Shown piece by piece: positions 2,971 through 11,452 of a stretch of DNA of 33,537 bases. This DNA comes from Alphaproteobacteria bacterium (GTDB taxonomy: Bacteria; Pseudomonadota; Alphaproteobacteria; Caulobacterales; Caulobacteraceae), in the NCBI GenBank assembly GCA_025350685.1, contig JANXXK010000159.1, forward strand, positions 1 through 33,537, read 5' to 3'. The notes under the pieces were generated by a model. It saw only the letters and a program-made list of their open reading frames with translations. It was not told the origin of the DNA and did no database searches. The position numbers were made by a program, and so were the translations under genes. Position 1 is the stretch's first letter, and every line of letters begins with the position of its first letter.

Positions 2971-4770
2971 CTAAGCGCGGCGCGGGTCCGCGACGTCCTC
3001 GATCTCGAACTCCACGCCCGCCCGGCCCTGCCAATCATCGGGTTTCAGCTTGCCCGCGACGTGGATCGCGCCACCCTCGCCCATGAGCCGTTTGCCGGCC
3101 TCCGTACCCTCGACGCGCCAGGCCACGGCCTTCAATCGACCGCCGGAGCCGTCGGTCAGCGTCACCCGCACGTGACCGCCGCGCAGCGGCATCGGCCGCT
3201 CGACGCGCACGTCGGCTAGGGCGAACAGCGGCTCTGAGTTACCCGGCCCGAAGGGGGCCATGCGCTGAAAGTCCTGCCACAGCGCCCGGTCACAGCCGCG
3301 CGTCGCCACCAGGGCGTCGATCTCCAGGCAATCGTCAGCCGCCGCCACCTGGCTCTCCGCCGCCAGCCGCTCGCAGAGGAAGGCCCGCAGTTCCGGGATC
3401 GTGTCCGGCCGCACCGACAGCCCCGCGGCCATGGCGTGCCCGCCGCCGGCCAGGAGCAGGCCTTCGTCGTAAGCCGCCTGCACAGCCCGGCCGAGGTTCA
3501 CGCCGGGCTGTGAGCGCCCCGAGCCCTTGCCGATATTGGCCGCCCGGTCGACGCCCACCACCACGCAGGGCTTGCGGTACTTCTCGCGCAGCCGGCCCGC
3601 GACGATACCTATGACGCCGGGATGCCAATCATCGGCCGCCACCAGCAGCATCGGCGCGTCCGGCGCGTTGCTCTCGGTCTCGATATGGGCGATCGCCGCC
3701 TCGGTGACCTCGCGCTCGACCTCCTTGCGCGACGCATTCAGCGCATCCAGCTCCTCCGCCAGCCCCCGCGCCTCTTCCGGGTCGTCGGTCGACAGCAGCC
3801 GGGCGCCCAGGTCGGCCCGGCCAATCCGCCCGCCGGCGTTGATCCTCGGCCCCAGGATGAAGCCCGCGGTGAACACCGAAGCCGCCCCTTGCGCCCCGGC
3901 CACGTCCATCAGCGCCTTCAGCCCCGGATTGCGCCAGGCCGACATCACCTTCAGCCCCTGCGCGGTCAGCGCCCGGTTGAAGCCGCGCAGTTCGGTCACG
4001 TCGCAGATCGCGCCCATGGCCGCCAGGTCCAGCGCCTGACGCAGGTCCGGCTCGGCGCGGTCCCCGAACAGCCCGCGCTTGCGCGCCTCGCGGTTCAGCG
4101 CCGCGGTCAGCACGAAGGTTACGCCCGCGGCCGCCAGATGGCCCTGCCCTGACGTATCGTCCGGCCGGTTGGGGTTCACCAGGGCCGCGACGTGCGGGAT
4201 TTCCTCGCCGCGCATCAGGTGGTGGTCGATCACCACCACCTCCAGGCCGATCTCGGCGGCGCAGGCCAGCGCATCGTGCGCCGCGGCTCCGCAGTCCACC
4301 GTGATCACCAGATCCGCGCCCTCGGCCTTCAGTCGTTTGAACGCTGCCGGTGAGGGGCCGTAACCCTCCAGGATCCGGTCCGGGACATAGATCGGCAGCT
4401 CCGCGCCCATGGCCCGGAACCAGCGCACCAGCTGCGCCGCCGACGAGGCCCCGTCCACGTCATAGTCGGCGAACACCACCATCGGGCGTTTGCGTTCGAG
4501 CCGGTCCACCAGGATCTCGGCCGCGCGGTCCATGTCGGCGAACGACGACGGGTCGGGGAACAGCGCCTTCAGCGTCGGGTTCAGATAGTCCTCAGCCTGC
4601 TCGGACAGCACACCCCGGGCCGCCAGGGCCCGGGCCAGTGGCTCGGACAGCGCGAAGTTCAGTTGCAGCTTGCGCACCAGCTCCGCATCGGCCGCCCTCT
4701 CGCGCCACAGCCGCCCGCTGAGCGACTGCGTCACGCCGAGATAGCCTGGATATGTGCTGCCGTCCGGCAA
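2971..4770 (-). CDS. recJ: Single-stranded-DNA-specific exonuclease RecJ
   Basis: A 5'-3' exonuclease on single-stranded DNA, acting in RecF-pathway recombination and mismatch repair. DHH-family motifs are present in order: VVFADYDVDGASSAAQLV (motif I), LVITVDCGAAA (II), VVVIDHH (III, the DHH triad). The DHHA1 motif GGHAMAAGLSV follows, then a C-terminal OB-like domain. About 599 residues, normal for RecJ. Start choice: the frame runs up to 4881, but the TTG at 4768-4770 has AGGAG seven bases upstream and begins just before the conserved YLGVTQSLSGR segment. A GTG at 4798-4800 is an alternative with no visible ribosome binding site. In many alphaproteobacteria recJ directly follows hom-glpX; here about 6.7 kb of plus-strand genes separates it from glpX. 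Confidence 0.93.
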   Translation of the reverse strand: MPDGSTYPGYLGVTQSLSGRLWRERAADAELVRKLQLNFALSEPLARALAARGVLSEQAEDYLNPTLKALFPDPSSFADMDRAAEILVDRLERKRPMVVFADYDVDGASSAAQLVRWFRAMGAELPIYVPDRILEGYGPSPAAFKRLKAEGADLVITVDCGAAAHDALACAAEIGLEVVVIDHHLMRGEEIPHVAALVNPNRPDDTSGQGHLAAAGVTFVLTAALNREARKRGLFGDRAEPDLRQALDLAAMGAICDVTELRGFNRALTAQGLKVMSAWRNPGLKALMDVAGAQGAASVFTAGFILGPRINAGGRIGRADLGARLLSTDDPEEARGLAEELDALNASRKEVEREVTEAAIAHIETESNAPDAPMLLVAADDWHPGVIGIVAGRLREKYRKPCVVVGVDRAANIGKGSGRSQPGVNLGRAVQAAYDEGLLLAGGGHAMAAGLSVRPDTIPELRAFLCERLAAESQVAAADDCLEIDALVATRGCDRALWQDFQRMAPFGPGNSEPLFALADVRVERPMPLRGGHVRVTLTDGSGGRLKAVAWRVEGTEAGKRLMGEGGAIHVAGKLKPDDWQGRAGVEFEIEDVADPRRA

Positions 4771-4800
4771 ACCGCCGCTCCTGACCCCGCCTCGCGTCAC

Positions 4801-4957
4801 TATCGGCCCGCGGCGCACGAGTCGCCAGTCGGCTCGCGGTTGCAGTCGAACGCCTGGCTGCGTCAAAATCGGTCGCAGCAAGCTGCAGCTGTCATAAAAA
4901 TTTCAATGGCGACCGAAATCGTTCCGGCCTACCCGCAAGCCGGTCGAGGGAGCTGGC
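4801..4957. other. Divergent intergenic region between recJ and the multiubiquitin gene
   Basis: 157 bases that must carry promoters in both directions. A relatively AT-rich patch (4891-4909) follows a 10-bp perfect palindrome AGCTGCAGCT (4881-4890). On the plus strand TTGCAG (4840s) is followed after 17 bases by TCAAAA, a weak candidate promoter. No stronger element seen. Confidence 0.4.
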
Positions 4958-5479
4958 ATGAACGACTGTGTGGCCGGGGATATTGAAGACCTTGAGGTGT
5001 GCGTGCGCGAAGGTCGGCGTCCGCGGGATAACGGCCCCTACCGGGTGATGGTGGGCGATTCGCTGATGCGCTTCGCCCCGATCATCGCTGAAGACGCCAA
5101 CCACACCGGCCGCTCCCTGCTTGGGCTGACCGCCCTGGAACCGGTCGAGGAACATGTGCTGTTCGCCGTGCTGGCGGGTGGCCTTCTCGAGGAGATCCGC
5201 CTGGAGGAGACGGTCGACCTGCGCCAGGGTGTCGAGAAGTTCGTGGCGTTTCGGAGCGATCGTATCTTCCGCCTGCTGATCAACGGCCGCGAGTATGATT
5301 GGGGTGGCTGCTTCATAAGCGGCGCGACGGTGTTGAAGCTCGCGAAGGCCGACAGCGACGCCGAGGGCGTTTGGCTCAAGGGCGCTGGCGGCGAGGAACG
5401 CCGCATCGGCGCCGCCGAGCTGATCGACCTCAGTCAGCCCGGCGTCGAGACCTTCGCCACGCGCGCGCTGGGCGGCTAG
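4958..5479 (+). CDS. Orphan multiubiquitin-family protein: two tandem ubiquitin-like (beta-grasp) domains, C-terminal Gly-Gly
   Basis: 173 residues. Two related units are visible: about residues 27-99 (YRVMVGD ... GRSLLGL ... PVEEHVLFAVL ... LEEIRLEETVDLR ... GVEKFVAFRS) and about 103-168 (FRLLINGREYDW ... ISGATVLKLA ... GVWLKG ... RRIGAAELIDLS ... GVETFAT). This is the pattern of the bacterial multiubiquitin family (Pfam Multi_ubiq). The protein ends ATRALGG, so a diglycine is exposed at the C-terminus as in a mature ubiquitin-like modifier. ATG 4958 has GAGGGAG five bases upstream. In known systems such proteins are encoded with E1, E2 and JAB-protease genes, some acting in phage defence. 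None of these is next to this gene in the window, so partner and function are unknown. The family call is from recognition of motifs, without a search. Confidence 0.75.
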   Translation: MNDCVAGDIEDLEVCVREGRRPRDNGPYRVMVGDSLMRFAPIIAEDANHTGRSLLGLTALEPVEEHVLFAVLAGGLLEEIRLEETVDLRQGVEKFVAFRSDRIFRLLINGREYDWGGCFISGATVLKLAKADSDAEGVWLKGAGGEERRIGAAELIDLSQPGVETFATRALGG

Positions 5480-5543
5480 CGACAGTTCATTCACGCCGCA
5501 ACCGGACCGCCGGCGAACGCGAGCCGACTGCGCAGCCGTGTGT

Positions 5544-5563
5544 TGGCCACATGAAAGTGGCCA
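5544..5563. promoter_or_regulatory. Perfect inverted repeat, likely operator of the aldo/keto reductase gene
   Basis: TGGCCAC (5544-5550), a 6-base spacer, GTGGCCA (5557-5563). It lies 31 bases before the ATG at 5595 and abuts CATATAAGG, which could hold the -10 element. A bound dimeric repressor here would block transcription. No regulator gene is adjacent. Confidence 0.5.
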
Positions 5564-5594
5564 TATAAGGCACGTCCCAACCCGGAGGCCCGAG

Positions 5595-6470
5595 ATGACC
5601 GACATCACCCGCGCCGGCGCCTTCCAGCTCAGCGACCGATCCGTCAACCGCATGGGCTACGGCGCAATGCAACTGGCTGGCCCCGGCGTGTTCGGGCCAC
5701 CCAAGGACCACGCCGGCGCGCTCGCGGTGCTGCGCGAAGCTGTGGCCCGCGGCGTCAACCACATCGACACCAGCGACTATTACGGCCCCCACGTCACCAA
5801 CCAGCTGATCCGCGAGGCCCTGCACCCCTATCGCGACGGCCTGACCATCGTCACCAAGCTCGGCGCCCGGCGCGGCGACGACGCCTCCTGGATCCCGGCC
5901 CACAGCCCCGCCGAGCTGACCCAGGGCGTGCACGACAATCTGCGCAACCTCGGCCTCGAAGCGCTCGACGTCGCCAACCTGCGGATCGGCGACATCCAGG
6001 GACCCGCGGAGGGCACGCTGGAGCCGCAGTTCGCCACGCTCGCCGAGTTGCAGCGTCAAGGCCTGATCCGCCACCTGGGCCTCAGCAATGTGACCTCGGC
6101 CCAGGTCAAGGAAGCCCGCGCCATCGCGCCGGTGGTCTGCGTGCAGAACCACTACAACCTCGCCCATCGCGGCGACGACGCGCTGATCGACGAGCTGGCC
6201 GGGCTGTGCATCGCCTATGCGCCGTTCTTCCCCCTGGGTGGTTTCTTCCCGCTGCAATCCTCGGCGCTGTCCGAGGTGGCGGCGGACCTGGGGGCGACCC
6301 CGATGCAGGTGGCGCTGGCCTGGCTGCTGCGCCGGGCGCCCAACATCCTGCTGATTCCCGGCACCTCATCCCTCGACCACCTGAGCGAGAACCTGGCCGC
6401 GGCCGAACTGGCGTTGCCGGACGCCGCGCTCGCCCGCCTCAACGCCATCGGCGCGCTCGCGGCCAGTTAA
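5595..6470 (+). CDS. pdxI: YdbC/PdxI-type aldo/keto reductase (probable pyridoxal reductase)
   Basis: 291 residues. From memory it matches E. coli YdbC (renamed PdxI, NADPH-dependent pyridoxal reductase) closely along its length: SVNRMGYGAMQLAGPGVFG at the N-terminus, REAVARGVNHIDTSDYYGP (AKR catalytic Asp and Tyr), TIVTKLGARRG (catalytic Lys), HLGLSNV, and LLIPGTSS near the C-terminus. The fourth AKR residue, usually His in a QLH motif, is Arg here (ANLRIG); E. coli YdbC also lacks it, so this is a subfamily trait. Start: ATG 5595 with GGAGG six to seven bases upstream; the frame extends to 5538 but has no such signal. An inverted repeat sits just upstream. Substrate is inferred from the homologue. 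Confidence 0.85.
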   Translation: MTDITRAGAFQLSDRSVNRMGYGAMQLAGPGVFGPPKDHAGALAVLREAVARGVNHIDTSDYYGPHVTNQLIREALHPYRDGLTIVTKLGARRGDDASWIPAHSPAELTQGVHDNLRNLGLEALDVANLRIGDIQGPAEGTLEPQFATLAELQRQGLIRHLGLSNVTSAQVKEARAIAPVVCVQNHYNLAHRGDDALIDELAGLCIAYAPFFPLGGFFPLQSSALSEVAADLGATPMQVALAWLLRRAPNILLIPGTSSLDHLSENLAAAELALPDAALARLNAIGALAAS

Positions 6471-6527
6471 GCCCTCGTCGGCAGCCCCGAGATTGACGGC
6501 GGCCCGCCGGCCACGTCTGTTCGCATC

Positions 6528-8839
6528 ATGTCGGGGTCCCTATCGCGTCGTCAGGCACTCGCGCGGTCCGTGGCGGCGTGGCTTTTCGCCGCCGCCTCCC
6601 CGGCCCTGGCGCGGCGCAGGCCCGCCGACCCGGGTCCGGCCCGCGCGGCCCTGACCCGCCTCTTCGGACCCCGCGCCCGCCAGATCGAGCTGACGCTGCA
6701 GCCATCGCCCCAGGCCGGTTCGCGCCCTTGGTATGCCGCCGAGAGCCACGGTGGAACGCTCTCGGTGCGCGGCGACAGCCCCGTCGCCTTGGTGCGCGGC
6801 GCCTACGCCGCCCTGCGCGATGCCGGCTACGCCCACGTGAGCTGGGAGGGCGACCGCATCGCCTTGCCCGCCCGTCTGCCCGATGCCGCGACCGGGCGTG
6901 TCGAGAGCCCCTTCGCCCACCGCGCCTACCTGAACACCTGCGCGTTCGGCTACACGACGCCCTGGTGGGACTGGCCGCGCTGGTCGCGCGAGATCGACTG
7001 GATGGCGGTCCACGGCATCGACATGCCCCTGGCCATGGAGGGCCAGGAATACGTCTGGCGGGCCCTGTGGCGCGAGGCTGGCCTCACCGAGCCCGAACTG
7101 GCCGACTACTTTTCCGGCCCTGCCTTCACCCCCTGGCAGCGGATGGGCAACCTCGAGGGCTACCGCGCCCCGCTGGCGGCCGCCTGGATCGACAAGAAGC
7201 GCGACCTGCAACGCCTGATCCTGACGCGGATGCGCGAGCTGGGCATGAGCCCGATCCTGCCGGCCTTCGGCGGCTATGTGCCCAAGGCCTTCGCGCTCAA
7301 ACACCCCAAGGCCCGCATCTACAGGATGCGCGCCGGCGCCGGCTTCCACGAGACCTACTGGCTCGATCCGGGCGATGCGCTGTTCGCCCACCTCGCCGGC
7401 CGGTTCCTGGCGCTCTACACGGGCACCTACGGCGCCGGGACCCACTACCTGGCCGACTCGTTCAACGAGATGACCCCGCCGATCGCTGACGACGGCTCCG
7501 ACGCCGGGGCGCCTTCAACGACGCCGCGGCCGCCTCGGCCGCCGCCAAGACCGTCGATCCGGTCGTCAAGGCCAAGCGTCTCGCGGCCTACGGCAAGGCG
7601 ATCCACGACGCCTTCGCCCAGACCCGGCCCGACGCCGTGTGGGTGATGCAAGGCTGGCTGTTCGGCGCCGACCAGGCGTTCTGGACCGCCGGCGCCATCG
7701 CCGCCTACCTGAGCCAGGTCCCCGACGACAGGCTGATGATCCTCGACATCGGCAACGACCGCTATCCGGACATCTGGCGCAAGGCCCGAGGCTTCGCCGG
7801 CAAGCCGTGGATCTACGGCTACGTCCACAACTACGGCGCCAGCAATCCGGTCTACGGCGATCTCGGCTACTACCGCGCCGACCTCGCCGCCCTCACCGCC
7901 CTCACCGCCAGCCCCGACACCAAAGCGCTGGCCGGATTCGGTCTGTTCCCCGAGGGCCTGAACAACAATTCCATCGTCTACGAAGCTGCTTACGACCTCG
8001 CCTGGAACGCCGGCGGTGCCTCGCAAGGCGCGTGGCTCGCGACCTACGCCCGGTCCCGCTACGGCCGCACCACGCCCGACCTCGAAGCGACGCTCGGCCA
8101 ACTCAGGGAGGCCGCCTATTCGACCCGCTACTGGACGCCCCGCTGGTGGCGCAACAAGGCCGGCGCCTACCTGTTCTGCAAGCGGCCCACCGCGGCCATC
8201 GTCGAATTCGAGGGCCATCCCGGCGACCGGATCAAGCTCACCGCCGCCGTGCGCGAGTTGGCCCGCCTTGCGCCCCAGTTCGCCGACCAATCGCTGTTCG
8301 TCATCGACCTCGTCGACGCCGCCCGCCATCTGGTCAGCGAAGAGATCGACCTGCTGTTGATCCAGGCCGTCGCCGGCTACCGCCACCGCCCTGTCACCGC
8401 CCCCGCCGGCGACCGCAATCGCCGTAAGGTCGAGGACCTGGCGCTCGCCCTCGACGCCTTGATGGGCGTTCGCGCCGAGACCCTGGCGACCTGGATCGAC
8501 GAGGCCCGCGCCTACGCCGACAACCCCGCCGACGCCCGCGCCTACGTCTTGAACGCCAAGGCCCAGGTCACGATCTGGGGCGGCCAGGGCAACCTCAACG
8601 ACTATGCGTCCAAGGCCTGGCAGGGGCTTTACCGCGACTTCTACCTGCCCCGCTGGATGAAGTTCCTCGACGCCCTGCGCGACGCCGCCCCCGGCCCTTT
8701 CGACGAAGGCCCCGTGGTCCGCGACATCGCCGCCTGGGAGCAGGCCTGGGTCGAGGCCGACACCGCCTACGTCCGCACCCGCCCCGCCGATCCGATCGCT
8801 TCGGTCCGCGCCCTGCTGGCCCGTCTGGAGCAGCCATGA
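6528..8839 (+). pseudogene. GH89 alpha-N-acetylglucosaminidase (NAGLU family), interrupted by a frameshift
   Basis: Two frames together encode a protein of about 770 residues, normal for GH89. The N-terminus MSGSLSRRQALARSVAA is a twin-arginine signal, so export to the periplasm is expected. Frame 1 (6528 to about 7500) holds the N-terminal domain and much of the barrel, including MAVHGIDMPLAMEGQEYVWR and DSFNEMTPP; the Glu of FNEM (residue 314) aligns with human NAGLU E316. The sequence then continues in another frame to 8839, with VWVMQGWLF and GLFPEGLNNNS, whose Glu matches the second catalytic residue. A TGA in the second frame at 7487-7489 and loss of similarity after about 7505 in the first place the shift at 7490-7505. 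Neither half has both catalytic residues. Either a real lesion or a sequencing error in a GC-rich run. The downstream gene overlaps by ATGA. Confidence 0.88.
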
Positions 8840-9957
8840 GCCCGCCGCCCGCCGCCAATCGCTTCCTGTCGCTGGACGTGTTCCGGGGCCTCGCCGTCGC
8901 CCTGATGATCGTCGTCAACACGCCCGGTCCCGGCGCCCATCCCTACCCTTGGCTCCTCCACGCCAAGTGGTTCGGCTTCACCGCCGCCGACTGGGTGTTC
9001 CCCTCGTTCCTGTTCGCCGTGGGCTGCGGCATGGCCTTCGCCTTTGCGCGGCCGACCAGCCACGGCGCCTTCGCGGTGAAGGTCCTGCGCCGCTCCGCCC
9101 TGATCTTCCTCTTCGGCTTCGCTATGTACTGGTACCCCTTCGTGCACCAGGTTGACGGGGCCTTGAGCCTGATCCCGTTCGCCGACACGCGGGTGATGGG
9201 CGTGCTGCAGCGGATCGCGCTCTGCTATGCGCTGGCCGCCTTAGCCGTCCGCTACCTCTCGGTGCGCAGGCTGGTGGCGCTCTCGGGGCTGCTGCTCGCC
9301 GGCTACTGGGCCATCCTGCTGACGCTTGGCGATCCCGCCGACCCGCTCTCCAGGCTTGGCAATGCCGGGACCCACCTCGACCTCCTGGTTCTGGGCCAGA
9401 GCCACCTCTACCGCCGCGACGGCGGCTTCGACCCGGAAGGCCTGCTAGGGACCTTGCCCGCGACGGTCAATGTGATCGCCGGATACTTGGCCGCCCGCTA
9501 TCTCACCGGGGCCCCCGACCGCCGCCGCACGGTCATCAGCATGGCCCTGGCCGGTCTCGTCCTGGGGCTCGCCGCCCTGGCCTGGAACCCGTGGTTCCCG
9601 ATCGCCAAGAAGCTCTGGACCAGCAGCTTCGTCCTGCTGACCGTCGGCATCGACCTGGTGGTGCTGGCCGTGCTGGCCGCAGCCGTGGAGGGCCGTCCGC
9701 CCAACCCGGCGACCCGCTTCTTCCAGGTGTTCGGCCGCAACCCCCTGGTTATCTATCTGTTCTCGGAGCTGTTCGTGACCACCCTGAACCTGATCAAGGT
9801 CGCGCCCGACGCCGGCGTCTACGAGTGGATCGGCGGCCTGTTCCAGGCGCTGGCCCCGGGCCCGCCGGGCTCGCTGCTTTGCGCGATCGCCTACACTCTG
9901 GTCTGCTGGCTGCTTGGCTACCTCCTCGACCGCCGAGGGATCGTGGTGAAGCTCTGA
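8836..9957 (+). CDS. nagX: NagX / heparan-alpha-glucosaminide N-acetyltransferase-like membrane protein (DUF5009)
   Basis: 373 residues, about ten transmembrane helices. The start FLSLDVFRGLAVALMIVVN and the following HAKWFGFTAADWVFPSFLF are the signature of the family that includes lysosomal HGSNAT and bacterial NagX; the His of the second motif is a candidate for the acetyl-carrying residue known in HGSNAT. Near the C-terminus FFQVFGRNPLVIYLFSEL is also typical. ATG overlaps the GH89 stop (ATGA), so the two are translationally coupled. In bacteria nagX accompanies GlcNAc catabolic genes; a membrane acyltransferase acting on amino sugars is inferred. It fits with an upstream enzyme that releases GlcNAc. 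Confidence 0.82.
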   Translation: MSPPPAANRFLSLDVFRGLAVALMIVVNTPGPGAHPYPWLLHAKWFGFTAADWVFPSFLFAVGCGMAFAFARPTSHGAFAVKVLRRSALIFLFGFAMYWYPFVHQVDGALSLIPFADTRVMGVLQRIALCYALAALAVRYLSVRRLVALSGLLLAGYWAILLTLGDPADPLSRLGNAGTHLDLLVLGQSHLYRRDGGFDPEGLLGTLPATVNVIAGYLAARYLTGAPDRRRTVISMALAGLVLGLAALAWNPWFPIAKKLWTSSFVLLTVGIDLVVLAVLAAAVEGRPPNPATRFFQVFGRNPLVIYLFSELFVTTLNLIKVAPDAGVYEWIGGLFQALAPGPPGSLLCAIAYTLVCWLLGYLLDRRGIVVKL

Positions 9958-9986
9958 GCCGGTCAGGCCGGGCGGCATTGATCGCC

Positions 9987-10014
9987 TTGCCAATCGCGCG
10001 CCGGCCGCTAGCCT
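9987..10014 (+). promoter_or_regulatory. Possible promoter of the M20 peptidase gene
   Basis: TTGCCA (9987-9992), 16-base spacer, TAGCCT (10009-10014), 26 bases before the ATG at 10040. Position is right; the -10 match is weak. Confidence 0.4.
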
Positions 10015-10039
10015 CGGCCGAATCTTCGGGGGACGGCAG

Positions 10040-11452
10040 ATGCTCGGGATCATTGGAATTGCGGCCGCGACCGCCGCGGTCGCCGCCGCGCCGGCTCAGT
10101 CGCCGATGCCGCGTGCTGATCAGGTCGAGTTTCGGGCGCTCTACAAGGAGCTGGTGGAAACCAACACCACCCTGTCATCGGGAAGTTGCACGCTCGCGGC
10201 CGAGCGGATGGGGGCGCGCCTGAAGGCGGCAGGCCTCCCGGAGTCCGACCTGCATATCTTCACCGCGCCGGACCACCCCAAGGAAGGCGGCCTGGTCGCG
10301 ATCTATCCCGGGCGCGATCCGAAGGCCAAGGCTGTGCTGATGCTGGCCCACCTCGACGTCGTCGAGGCCAAGCGAGAGGACTGGACCCGCGATCCGTTCA
10401 CGCTGGTGGAGGAAAACGGCAATTTCTACGCGCGGGGCGCATCGGACGATAAGGCGATGGCCGCGACCTGGGTCGACACGCTCGTCCGGTACAGCCGCGA
10501 GGGCTACAAGCCGCGACGGACGCTCAAGATGGCGCTCACCTGCGGTGAGGAGACCAGTGGCGCCTTCAACGGCGCGGAATACCTGGCCAAGAACAAGCGT
10601 GATCTGATTGACGCCGCCTTTGCCGTCAACGAGGGCGGCGGCGGCATGCTCGACGCCGCCGGCAAGCCGGTGTTTGGGGCGATCCAGGTCGGCGAGAAGC
10701 TCTCCCAGAATTTCACCCTGGAGGTGACCAATCCCGGCGGTCACTCCTCCCGCCCGCTGCCGGACAACGCCATCTACCACCTGGCGCGCGCCCTGACGCG
10801 GGTTCAGGCCTACCGCTTCCCGGTGACATTCAGTGACACGACCCGGGACTATTTCACCCGCTATTCCAAGCTGCTGCCCACGCAGAAGCGGAACGCCATC
10901 GTCGCGCTCCTGAAGAACCCGCGCGATGAGAAAGCCCGCGCGATCGCCGAGAAAGACCCGGACAACAATTCCATCCTGCACACCAACTGCGTGGCTACGA
11001 TGCTGGACGCCGGACATGCGACGAACGCGCTTCCCCAGAGGGCGCGGGCGAACGTGAACTGCCGCATTTTCCCGGGCACGCCGACCGAAACCGTTCTGCA
11101 GACGCTCAATCAGGCGATCGGAGACCCGAAGGTGAAAATCACCCTGCGCGAGGTCCGCAACGCGCCCGCGCCGCCGCCGCCGCTCGATCCCAAGGTGCTG
11201 GGTCCCGCCGAGAAGCTGGCGGCCGAGATGTATCCGGGCGTGCCGGAGCTGCGGATCATGTCGGCCGGCGCGACCGACGGCGCGTTCCTGACGCCGGTCG
11301 GCATTCCGACCTACGGCATTTCAGGCGATTTCGGGGATCCGGACGGCGATGGCGTCCACGGCCTGAACGAGCGCGAGCGGGTGAAAGTGCTCTACGACAG
11401 CCGCGACTACCTCTATCGCCTGATGAAGATCTACGGCGACCAGCCGGACTGA
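10040..11452 (+). CDS. Secreted M20 family metallopeptidase
   Basis: 470 residues with an N-terminal signal peptide (MLGIIGIAAATAAVAAAPAQ). M20 metal-binding and catalytic motifs in order: LMLAHLDVV (His and Asp), RGASDDKA (bridging Asp), ALTCGEETSG (catalytic Glu pair), FAVNEGGGG, and near the C-terminus GISGDFGDPDGDGVHGLNER with the last metal His. The dimerisation (lid) domain includes NPGGHSSRP. Family members hydrolyse dipeptides or N-acyl amino acids with two zinc ions; the substrate here is unknown. ATG 10040 follows GGGGGACGGCAG. It is convergent with glpX, leaving a 30-base gap with no clear terminator. Confidence 0.9.
   Translation: MLGIIGIAAATAAVAAAPAQSPMPRADQVEFRALYKELVETNTTLSSGSCTLAAERMGARLKAAGLPESDLHIFTAPDHPKEGGLVAIYPGRDPKAKAVLMLAHLDVVEAKREDWTRDPFTLVEENGNFYARGASDDKAMAATWVDTLVRYSREGYKPRRTLKMALTCGEETSGAFNGAEYLAKNKRDLIDAAFAVNEGGGGMLDAAGKPVFGAIQVGEKLSQNFTLEVTNPGGHSSRPLPDNAIYHLARALTRVQAYRFPVTFSDTTRDYFTRYSKLLPTQKRNAIVALLKNPRDEKARAIAEKDPDNNSILHTNCVATMLDAGHATNALPQRARANVNCRIFPGTPTETVLQTLNQAIGDPKVKITLREVRNAPAPPPPLDPKVLGPAEKLAAEMYPGVPELRIMSAGATDGAFLTPVGIPTYGISGDFGDPDGDGVHGLNERERVKVLYDSRDYLYRLMKIYGDQPD

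Follow-up and report, generated by a model that had tools for sequence, protein, structure and literature searches.

A solitary tandem ubiquitin-like protein from Caulobacteraceae, perhaps a non-conjugated module of a polyUbl-type protein

Here, we describe a gene from a Caulobacteraceae bacterium that encodes two ubiquitin-like (Ubl) domains in tandem and stands alone. The searches support that it is an orphan in the whole 93%-complete genome, for the families searched. We consider it somewhat probable, at roughly 55%, that the product is a retained, non-conjugated Ubl1-Ubl2 module from a polyUbl/Bub-type protein that acts by non-covalent assembly or binding. Such a module would derive from a bacterial ubiquitination-like polyUbl ('Bub'-type) protein and would have kept its two N-terminal Ubl domains; E2 domain, conjugation tail and operon would be missing, yet selection would still act on it as a folded protein. 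The gene lies in what we call the window, the whole stretch of DNA that was analysed (33.5 kb), which is one whole contig of a 3.88 Mb assembly in 343 contigs. In the following, L-numbers denote fetched loci and G-numbers genomes, G000 being the window's own genome, and the term orphans refers to the window gene, L060 and L061.

The open reading frame is intact, runs from ATG to TAG and ends in ...ETFATRALGG (Table 1). An earlier note on this DNA had recognized a tandem protein of the multi-ubiquitin family, and the Pfam search bears this out, since Multi_ubiq (PF14452) matches the protein with 92.6 bits against a cut-off of 24.5 and in two stretches. The units that had been proposed at residues 27-99 and 103-168 lie close to the profile matches at 5093-5254 and 5267-5464; a search of the whole genome returned these two and a single further match below the cut-off. 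The third-position GC content (GC3) of 0.83 is that of coding composition, and homologues can be aligned from residue 1. Searches of NCBIfam and PADLOC with the window protein gave no family at E<=0.001.

Table 1. Positions of the orphan gene and of its parts in the window.
Feature	Position	Strand	Basis
Orphan tandem ubiquitin-like gene, 173 aa	4958..5479	+	PF14452 E=1.7e-26
N-terminal segment, residues 9-30, common to the three orphans and the L058 Ubl-Ubl-E2 fusion	4982..5047	+	alignment
Ubl1, first beta-grasp domain, residues 27-99	5036..5254	+	Pfam, model
Ubl2, second beta-grasp domain, residues 103-169	5264..5464	+	Pfam, model
Phe166, last-strand reference for the tail Gly at +10 in relatives	5453..5455	+	
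Short tail ATRALGG and stop, ending at +7, three residues before the relatives' tail Gly	5456..5479	+	

An AlphaFold2 model calculated from six aligned sequences (alignment A3) consists of two beta-grasp units (pLDDT 89.0, pTM 0.81), and the prediction of a ubiquitin-like fold for both domains was thus not refuted. Among PDB sequences, phmmer found 9cd2 (E=8.2e-26) and then 9d59, 8u38 and 9d5b. The best eight rows of a Foldseek search were likewise multi-ubiquitin chains (9cd2, 9d59, 9d5a, 9d5b, 8u38; E down to 1.2e-15), followed by linear di-ubiquitin, ISG15 and talin entries. The model superimposes on the solved pairs with a TM score of about 0.5 and an rmsd of about 6 Å, so the arrangement of the domains is not closely matched and may differ. 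According to their PDB titles 9d59 and 9d5b are multi-ubiquitin filaments. They are resolved over 146 residues of 247 and 261, and the resolved chains align with the two-domain model over 143-145 columns. From these lengths and the alignment we infer that the orphan covers the stretch that is resolved in the filaments. We take 9cd2, 9d59/9d5a, 9d5b and 8u38 to be the structures of Gong et al. 2025, in which three-domain bacterial Ubls reportedly form filaments in a Ca2+-mediated manner; an unusual conjugation chemistry is said to have been reported by Ye et al. 2026. Because the resolved chains of the filament relatives comprise roughly this pair of domains, self-assembly or partner binding through the Ubl1-Ubl2 surfaces would be the most likely activity of the orphan, as judged from its relatives.

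The neighbours of the gene had been described as unrelated to conjugation, and by Pfam they are indeed recJ (DHH, DHHA1, RecJ_OB) and an aldo/keto reductase. A recJ gene was detected in 58 of 60 genus genomes, and among the best 30 recJ loci, with flanks of up to 1.5 kb each, a Ubl gene stands beside it only in the own genome. A PEP-CTERM gene lies between recJ and the aldo/keto reductase in G015 (L142), and in G098 (L139) a glpX-like gene is directly beside recJ. In the window the gap between recJ and glpX (4958-11452) measures about 6.6 kb and holds the Ubl gene together with aldo/keto reductase, NAGLU, HGSNAT-like and M20 genes. With these differences at the recJ site, the orphan seems to mark the border of a variable segment. 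The NAGLU (alpha-N-acetylglucosaminidase) gene at 6528-8839 is split into two overlapping reading frames, 6528-7646 and 7637-8839, in different frames, which could reflect a frameshift or an error in sequencing. The spacer that separates the orphan from the reductase gene contains a perfect inverted repeat (5544-5563; 7-base arms, 6-base loop), which is operator-like and has no T run. A role of this repeat as an RNA element or terminator was considered: the 115 bases of 5480-5594 fold no better than shuffled sequence (z -0.71), with 39 of 200 shuffles folding at least as well.

Multi_ubiq proteins occur in 15 of 101 genus genomes and in 43 of 390 genomes of the family Caulobacteraceae, the latter with 44 loci since G692 has two. 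In 40 of the 44 family loci the fetched stretch also contains an E1-like gene, and the exceptions are the three orphans plus a truncated fragment. The E1 profile alone finds an E1-like reading frame in 35 of 44. Its seed sequences were 14 operon E1s selected by eye and the ThiF protein of G000; 11 of the 35 matching loci supplied such E1s and hence match by construction. A diverged E1 is found in five more loci (L052, L102, L103, L105, L113). In L052, E1-N and ThiF exceed the cut-off, Metal_CEHH is present and JAB scores below cut-off. For L103 the JAB and ThiF matches are both sub-threshold and PADLOC reports BilD; the E1 of L105 is 76% identical to that of L103. L102 and L113, the latter cut by a contig end, match a BilD-like profile. 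By eye, the multi-Ubl loci L102, L103, L105, L113 and L050 sit after a large UvrD-like helicase gene (~1130 aa).

The loci that lack an E1 are the window, L060 (G120), L114 (G791) and L124 (G553). Judged by its length and its mirrored reading frame, L114 is the same 6934-base contig as L061, which was assigned to G508. In L124 (5140-5562) the Multi_ubiq gene is a truncated fragment; it matches 43 of the 69 positions of the profile, has an integrase-like gene (by eye) nearby and possibly reflects operon decay. The window protein is most similar to L060 (172 aa) and L061, with 59-60% identity; the L061 frame was called with 185 aa, of which 176 aa remain when it is read from the aligned start. 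On the L061 contig a gene for a RyR-domain protein (3521-5236) follows the orphan, and one for a TIR-domain protein (6080-6934) lies further on. Five of 385 genomes of a class sample, the own genome included, reach E<=1e-10 with the three-row profile A2, and the other four all have an E1 (L128 and L129 by profile, L069 and L070 by eye). In an order sample 19 of 398 genomes, again including the own, match the orphan profile A5 at E<=1e-15; the open frames of the 18 others, at 253-397 aa, are all longer than that of the window (193). A pattern scan of genome contigs with alignment A2 gave six loci, namely L061, L062 (the L060 contig), L063 (the L058 contig) and three of other phyla with adjoining E1. 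The contig scan with the window protein alone as query gave no relative.

The earlier note had described the gene as an orphan within 33 kb, and this holds: the E1 profile built here finds no E1-like reading frame in the window, and none of the ThiF, JAB, Prok-E2_E and BilD-like matches listed for the own genome lies on the window contig. It had left open that partners are encoded elsewhere and had proposed to search the genome for E1, E2 and JAB genes. G000 has one ThiF match above cut-off, on another contig (258 bits), in a 252-aa frame that is MoeB-like by eye and stands beside genes resembling nth, fabA and fabB (by eye). Its one JAB match above cut-off is RadC. Among the orphan genomes, for which the E2 search covered the Prok-E2_E family and the JAB search G000, no Prok-E2_E match exceeds the cut-off of 25; the best scores are 12.6 bits in G000 and 16.7 in G120, with no match in G508, and the positive genomes G090 and G031 score 152.5 and 99.2 bits. 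At E<=0.001 ThiF gives one full-length match in G120 (245 bits) and none in G508, housekeeping copy included. The BilD-like profile, which scores 812 bits in the control genome G589, gives only cross-hits at ThiF genes (24.4 bits in G000, 32.5 in G120) and none in G508. Partners elsewhere in the genome are therefore disfavoured, with neither an operon-type E1 nor a Prok-E2_E match above cut-off in G000, G120 and G508. At completeness values of 93% (G000), 98% (G120) and 94% (G791), three independent assembly gaps are unlikely.

A conjugation-dead Ubl pair could also act as a decoy or antagonist that poisons Bub/Bil-type systems of incoming plasmids or mobile elements, either by co-assembly with their Ubl or by occupying their E1, E2 or JAB. 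The orphan retains both Ubl domains known from a conjugation protein and lacks the tail, relatives are carried by plasmids (120 of 72,556 records at E<=1e-3), and no own operon was found in the orphan genomes. However, 50,697 phage records gave no match at E<=0.01, and neither did a scan of IMG/VR with two peptide patterns. Moreover, three genomes without an operon would be expected by chance, because most family genomes have no Multi_ubiq gene at all. We therefore regard an antagonist as unlikely, even though it comes second to self-assembly, which on our analysis would be the leading idea.

In a 32-row tree, comprising 23 of the 44 family loci and nine outside rows (two pairs identical), the three orphans form one clade (100/98) with L058 as sister (91/91); the 21 family loci outside the tree mostly have one Ubl or are weakly similar. 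L058 is from Phenylobacterium sp. (G090, JAHUZY010000104.1) and encodes a Ubl-Ubl-Prok-E2_E protein (150 bits for the E2 family), followed by a JAB-ThiF gene that is cut by the contig end. The segment of residues 9-30 is strongly conserved between this protein and the orphans. Pairwise dN/dS values among the orphans are 0.22, 0.23 and 0.30 at 56-60% amino acid identity, and between orphans and L058 they are 0.23-0.42; they were obtained with our own script after Nei-Gojobori counting at a dS of 1.0-1.5, which is partly saturated. Values well below 1, together with the shared N-terminal segment, make it most likely that, after leaving the operon, the orphan protein has been retained as a folded chain. 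This weighs against the view that the gene is left over from a lost conjugation operon, is decaying and has no function today. Such decay would suit the sporadic occurrence (3 orphans among 390 family genomes), the different tails of the three orphans and the truncated fragment known from G553, but three intact reading frames under a dN/dS of 0.22-0.30 and an N-terminal segment conserved despite long divergence speak against it, and we consider a remnant less probable still than an antagonist.

The tails of the relatives follow a spacing rule, derived in this analysis for E2-linked and short-tail members. Among the relatives counted, which are E2-linked or have a short tail, 22 of 22 carry a Gly at position +10 past the last-strand Phe or Leu, and none of the three orphans does. 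These 22 comprise five free-ending modifiers with ...PLDETEG (L054, L057, L059, L118, L122), two with ...QDG plus a two-residue extension (L108, L112), nine Ubl-Ubl-E2 fusions with TTEG, STEG or TTAG around the Gly (L058, L070, L099, L170, L172, L173, L175, L176, L179) and six other proteins that run into an E2-like region (L028, L055, L104, L109, L116, L129). Some of these tails were picked by a TEG-like motif, and the last Ubl match was in some cases chosen by eye. Two subsets are independent of the motif. All nine Ubl-Ubl-E2 fusions among the 15 rows listed carry the Gly, the other six rows being the window gene plus five proteins that have a third domain; so do seven of seven E2 fusions from the family census (L028, L055, L058, L099, L104, L109, L116), two of which are also among the nine. 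For the E2 domain, the assignment comes from Pfam in L058 and L028 and was made by eye in the remaining fusions. Left out of the count were the tails FNVTxTxxS, HSS, VVQGG and similar, L050, and the L029/L119/L123 type (INPGR). L050 has a terminal Gly at +9, so the +10 spacing does not hold across the wider family. In the Ubl-Ubl-E2 fusions the Gly has the same spacing as the ends of the separate modifiers (...DETEG). An earlier tally of 16/16 against 0/3 gave 0.001 as an exact count, with orphans that are one clade and not independent; since they are three members of one clade, the absence of the +10 Gly may be a single loss.

The orphan tails themselves are short or changed. The window protein ends with ATRALGG after +7, L060 (...RPLS) with VTRPLS after +6, and L061 (...PLDSPTH) reads VIEPLDSPTH with a His at +10. 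The earlier note had taken the end of the window protein for a free C-terminal diglycine and had named the conservation of the final Gly-Gly across orthologues as a check. The Gly-Gly is present, but in only one of the three known orphans, the window protein alone, and is therefore not conserved; it stands at +6/+7, where relatives have DE, SS or QT, and not at their Gly position. We thus rejected a functional diglycine tail. In ubiquitin's own geometry a Gly-Gly two to three residues past the last strand is not out of place, and that is where it lies relative to the modelled last strand of the window protein, so that it may be a lineage-specific ubiquitin-like tail. The idea that the protein is a true modifier, its Gly-Gly activated in trans by the MoeB-like E1 or its partners hidden in the missing 7% of the assembly, is the least probable of all: it has in its favour this Gly-Gly end just past the last strand and the full-length ThiF-family protein in the genome, and against it the other two orphans without Gly-Gly, the mismatch with the relatives' tail position, three genomes of 93, 98 and 94% completeness in which no operon-type E1 or Prok-E2_E was found, and the occurrence of Gly-Gly ends in 12 of 412 predicted genes of the family loci (among them the window gene and four BilA-like proteins with VVQGG).

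A kept fold, a short or changed tail and no enzyme partner in sight fit a binding protein rather than an attached one. The orphan would then be neither adenylated nor conjugated, and as a retained Ubl1-Ubl2 module it would work non-covalently. Thus, the tandem Multi_ubiq architecture and the orphan state proposed in the earlier note stand, and its alternative of a protein that acts alone and is not conjugated gains support by inference from the missing tail Gly and from the operon-type E1 and Prok-E2_E that were not found, while the functional free diglycine does not hold up and partners elsewhere are disfavoured. More tentatively, and with clearly less confidence than in the retained module, one may think of a Ubl family that has gone from conjugation, in which a solitary operon-derived pair serves as a self-assembling or sensing scaffold without dedicated E1 and E2. 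If true, the solitary scaffold would be an exaptation of the modifier's assembly module. Bacterial multi-Ubl conjugation proteins seem to combine assembly and attachment in a way that is hard to separate; a natural Ubl1-Ubl2 protein without E2, E1 and tail would make the assembly job directly testable on its own. The +10 Gly motif is a possible JAB cleavage site as judged from sequence, and this Gly, often in TTEG or TEG before the E2 or at the end, would predict the JAB cut site in Ubl-E2 fusions.

How does the orphan compare with known systems? The solved multi-ubiquitin proteins (9cd2, 9d59/9d5a, 9d5b, 8u38) have the same two domains. Their chains, however, are 222-261 residues long, with sequence continuing past the matched pair, and the orphan ends after Ubl2. 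Among the titles and abstract openings listed in a literature search, none deals with a bacterial multi-ubiquitin protein that is orphan or stand-alone; reviews of bacterial ubiquitin-like conjugation are available (PMC11354881, PMC12687455). The Bil (ISG15-like) systems with a multi-Ubl BilA share the tandem Ubl with the orphan, and the family loci L102, L103, L105 and L113 resemble Bil in ending with VVQGG beside JAB-like and BilD-like genes. Unlike in Bil, there is no third domain bearing a VVQGG tail in the orphan, and the BilD-like match of its genome is the ThiF cross-hit only.

Among the closest parallels is polyUbl type 6e. According to Iyer, Burroughs and Aravind 2006 (PMC1779556), polyUbl operons of this type encode one to three Ubl repeats. 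In mutually exclusive subsets these are fused either to a further, third domain of Ubl type or to an E2/RWD-like domain that is inactive, and the E1 encoded beside them is mostly fused to JAB. Related operons were named Bub, with 544 counted, in PMC13373217, which also states that phage protection by Bub operons has yet to be demonstrated. In contrast to polyUbl/Bub proteins, the orphan is solitary and without E1, E2/RWD domain, third Ubl and the usual tail Gly. It shares with them the Multi_ubiq domains, and its nearest non-orphan relative, L058, with two Ubl domains and an E2/RWD-like domain beside a JAB-E1, is itself of polyUbl type 6e.
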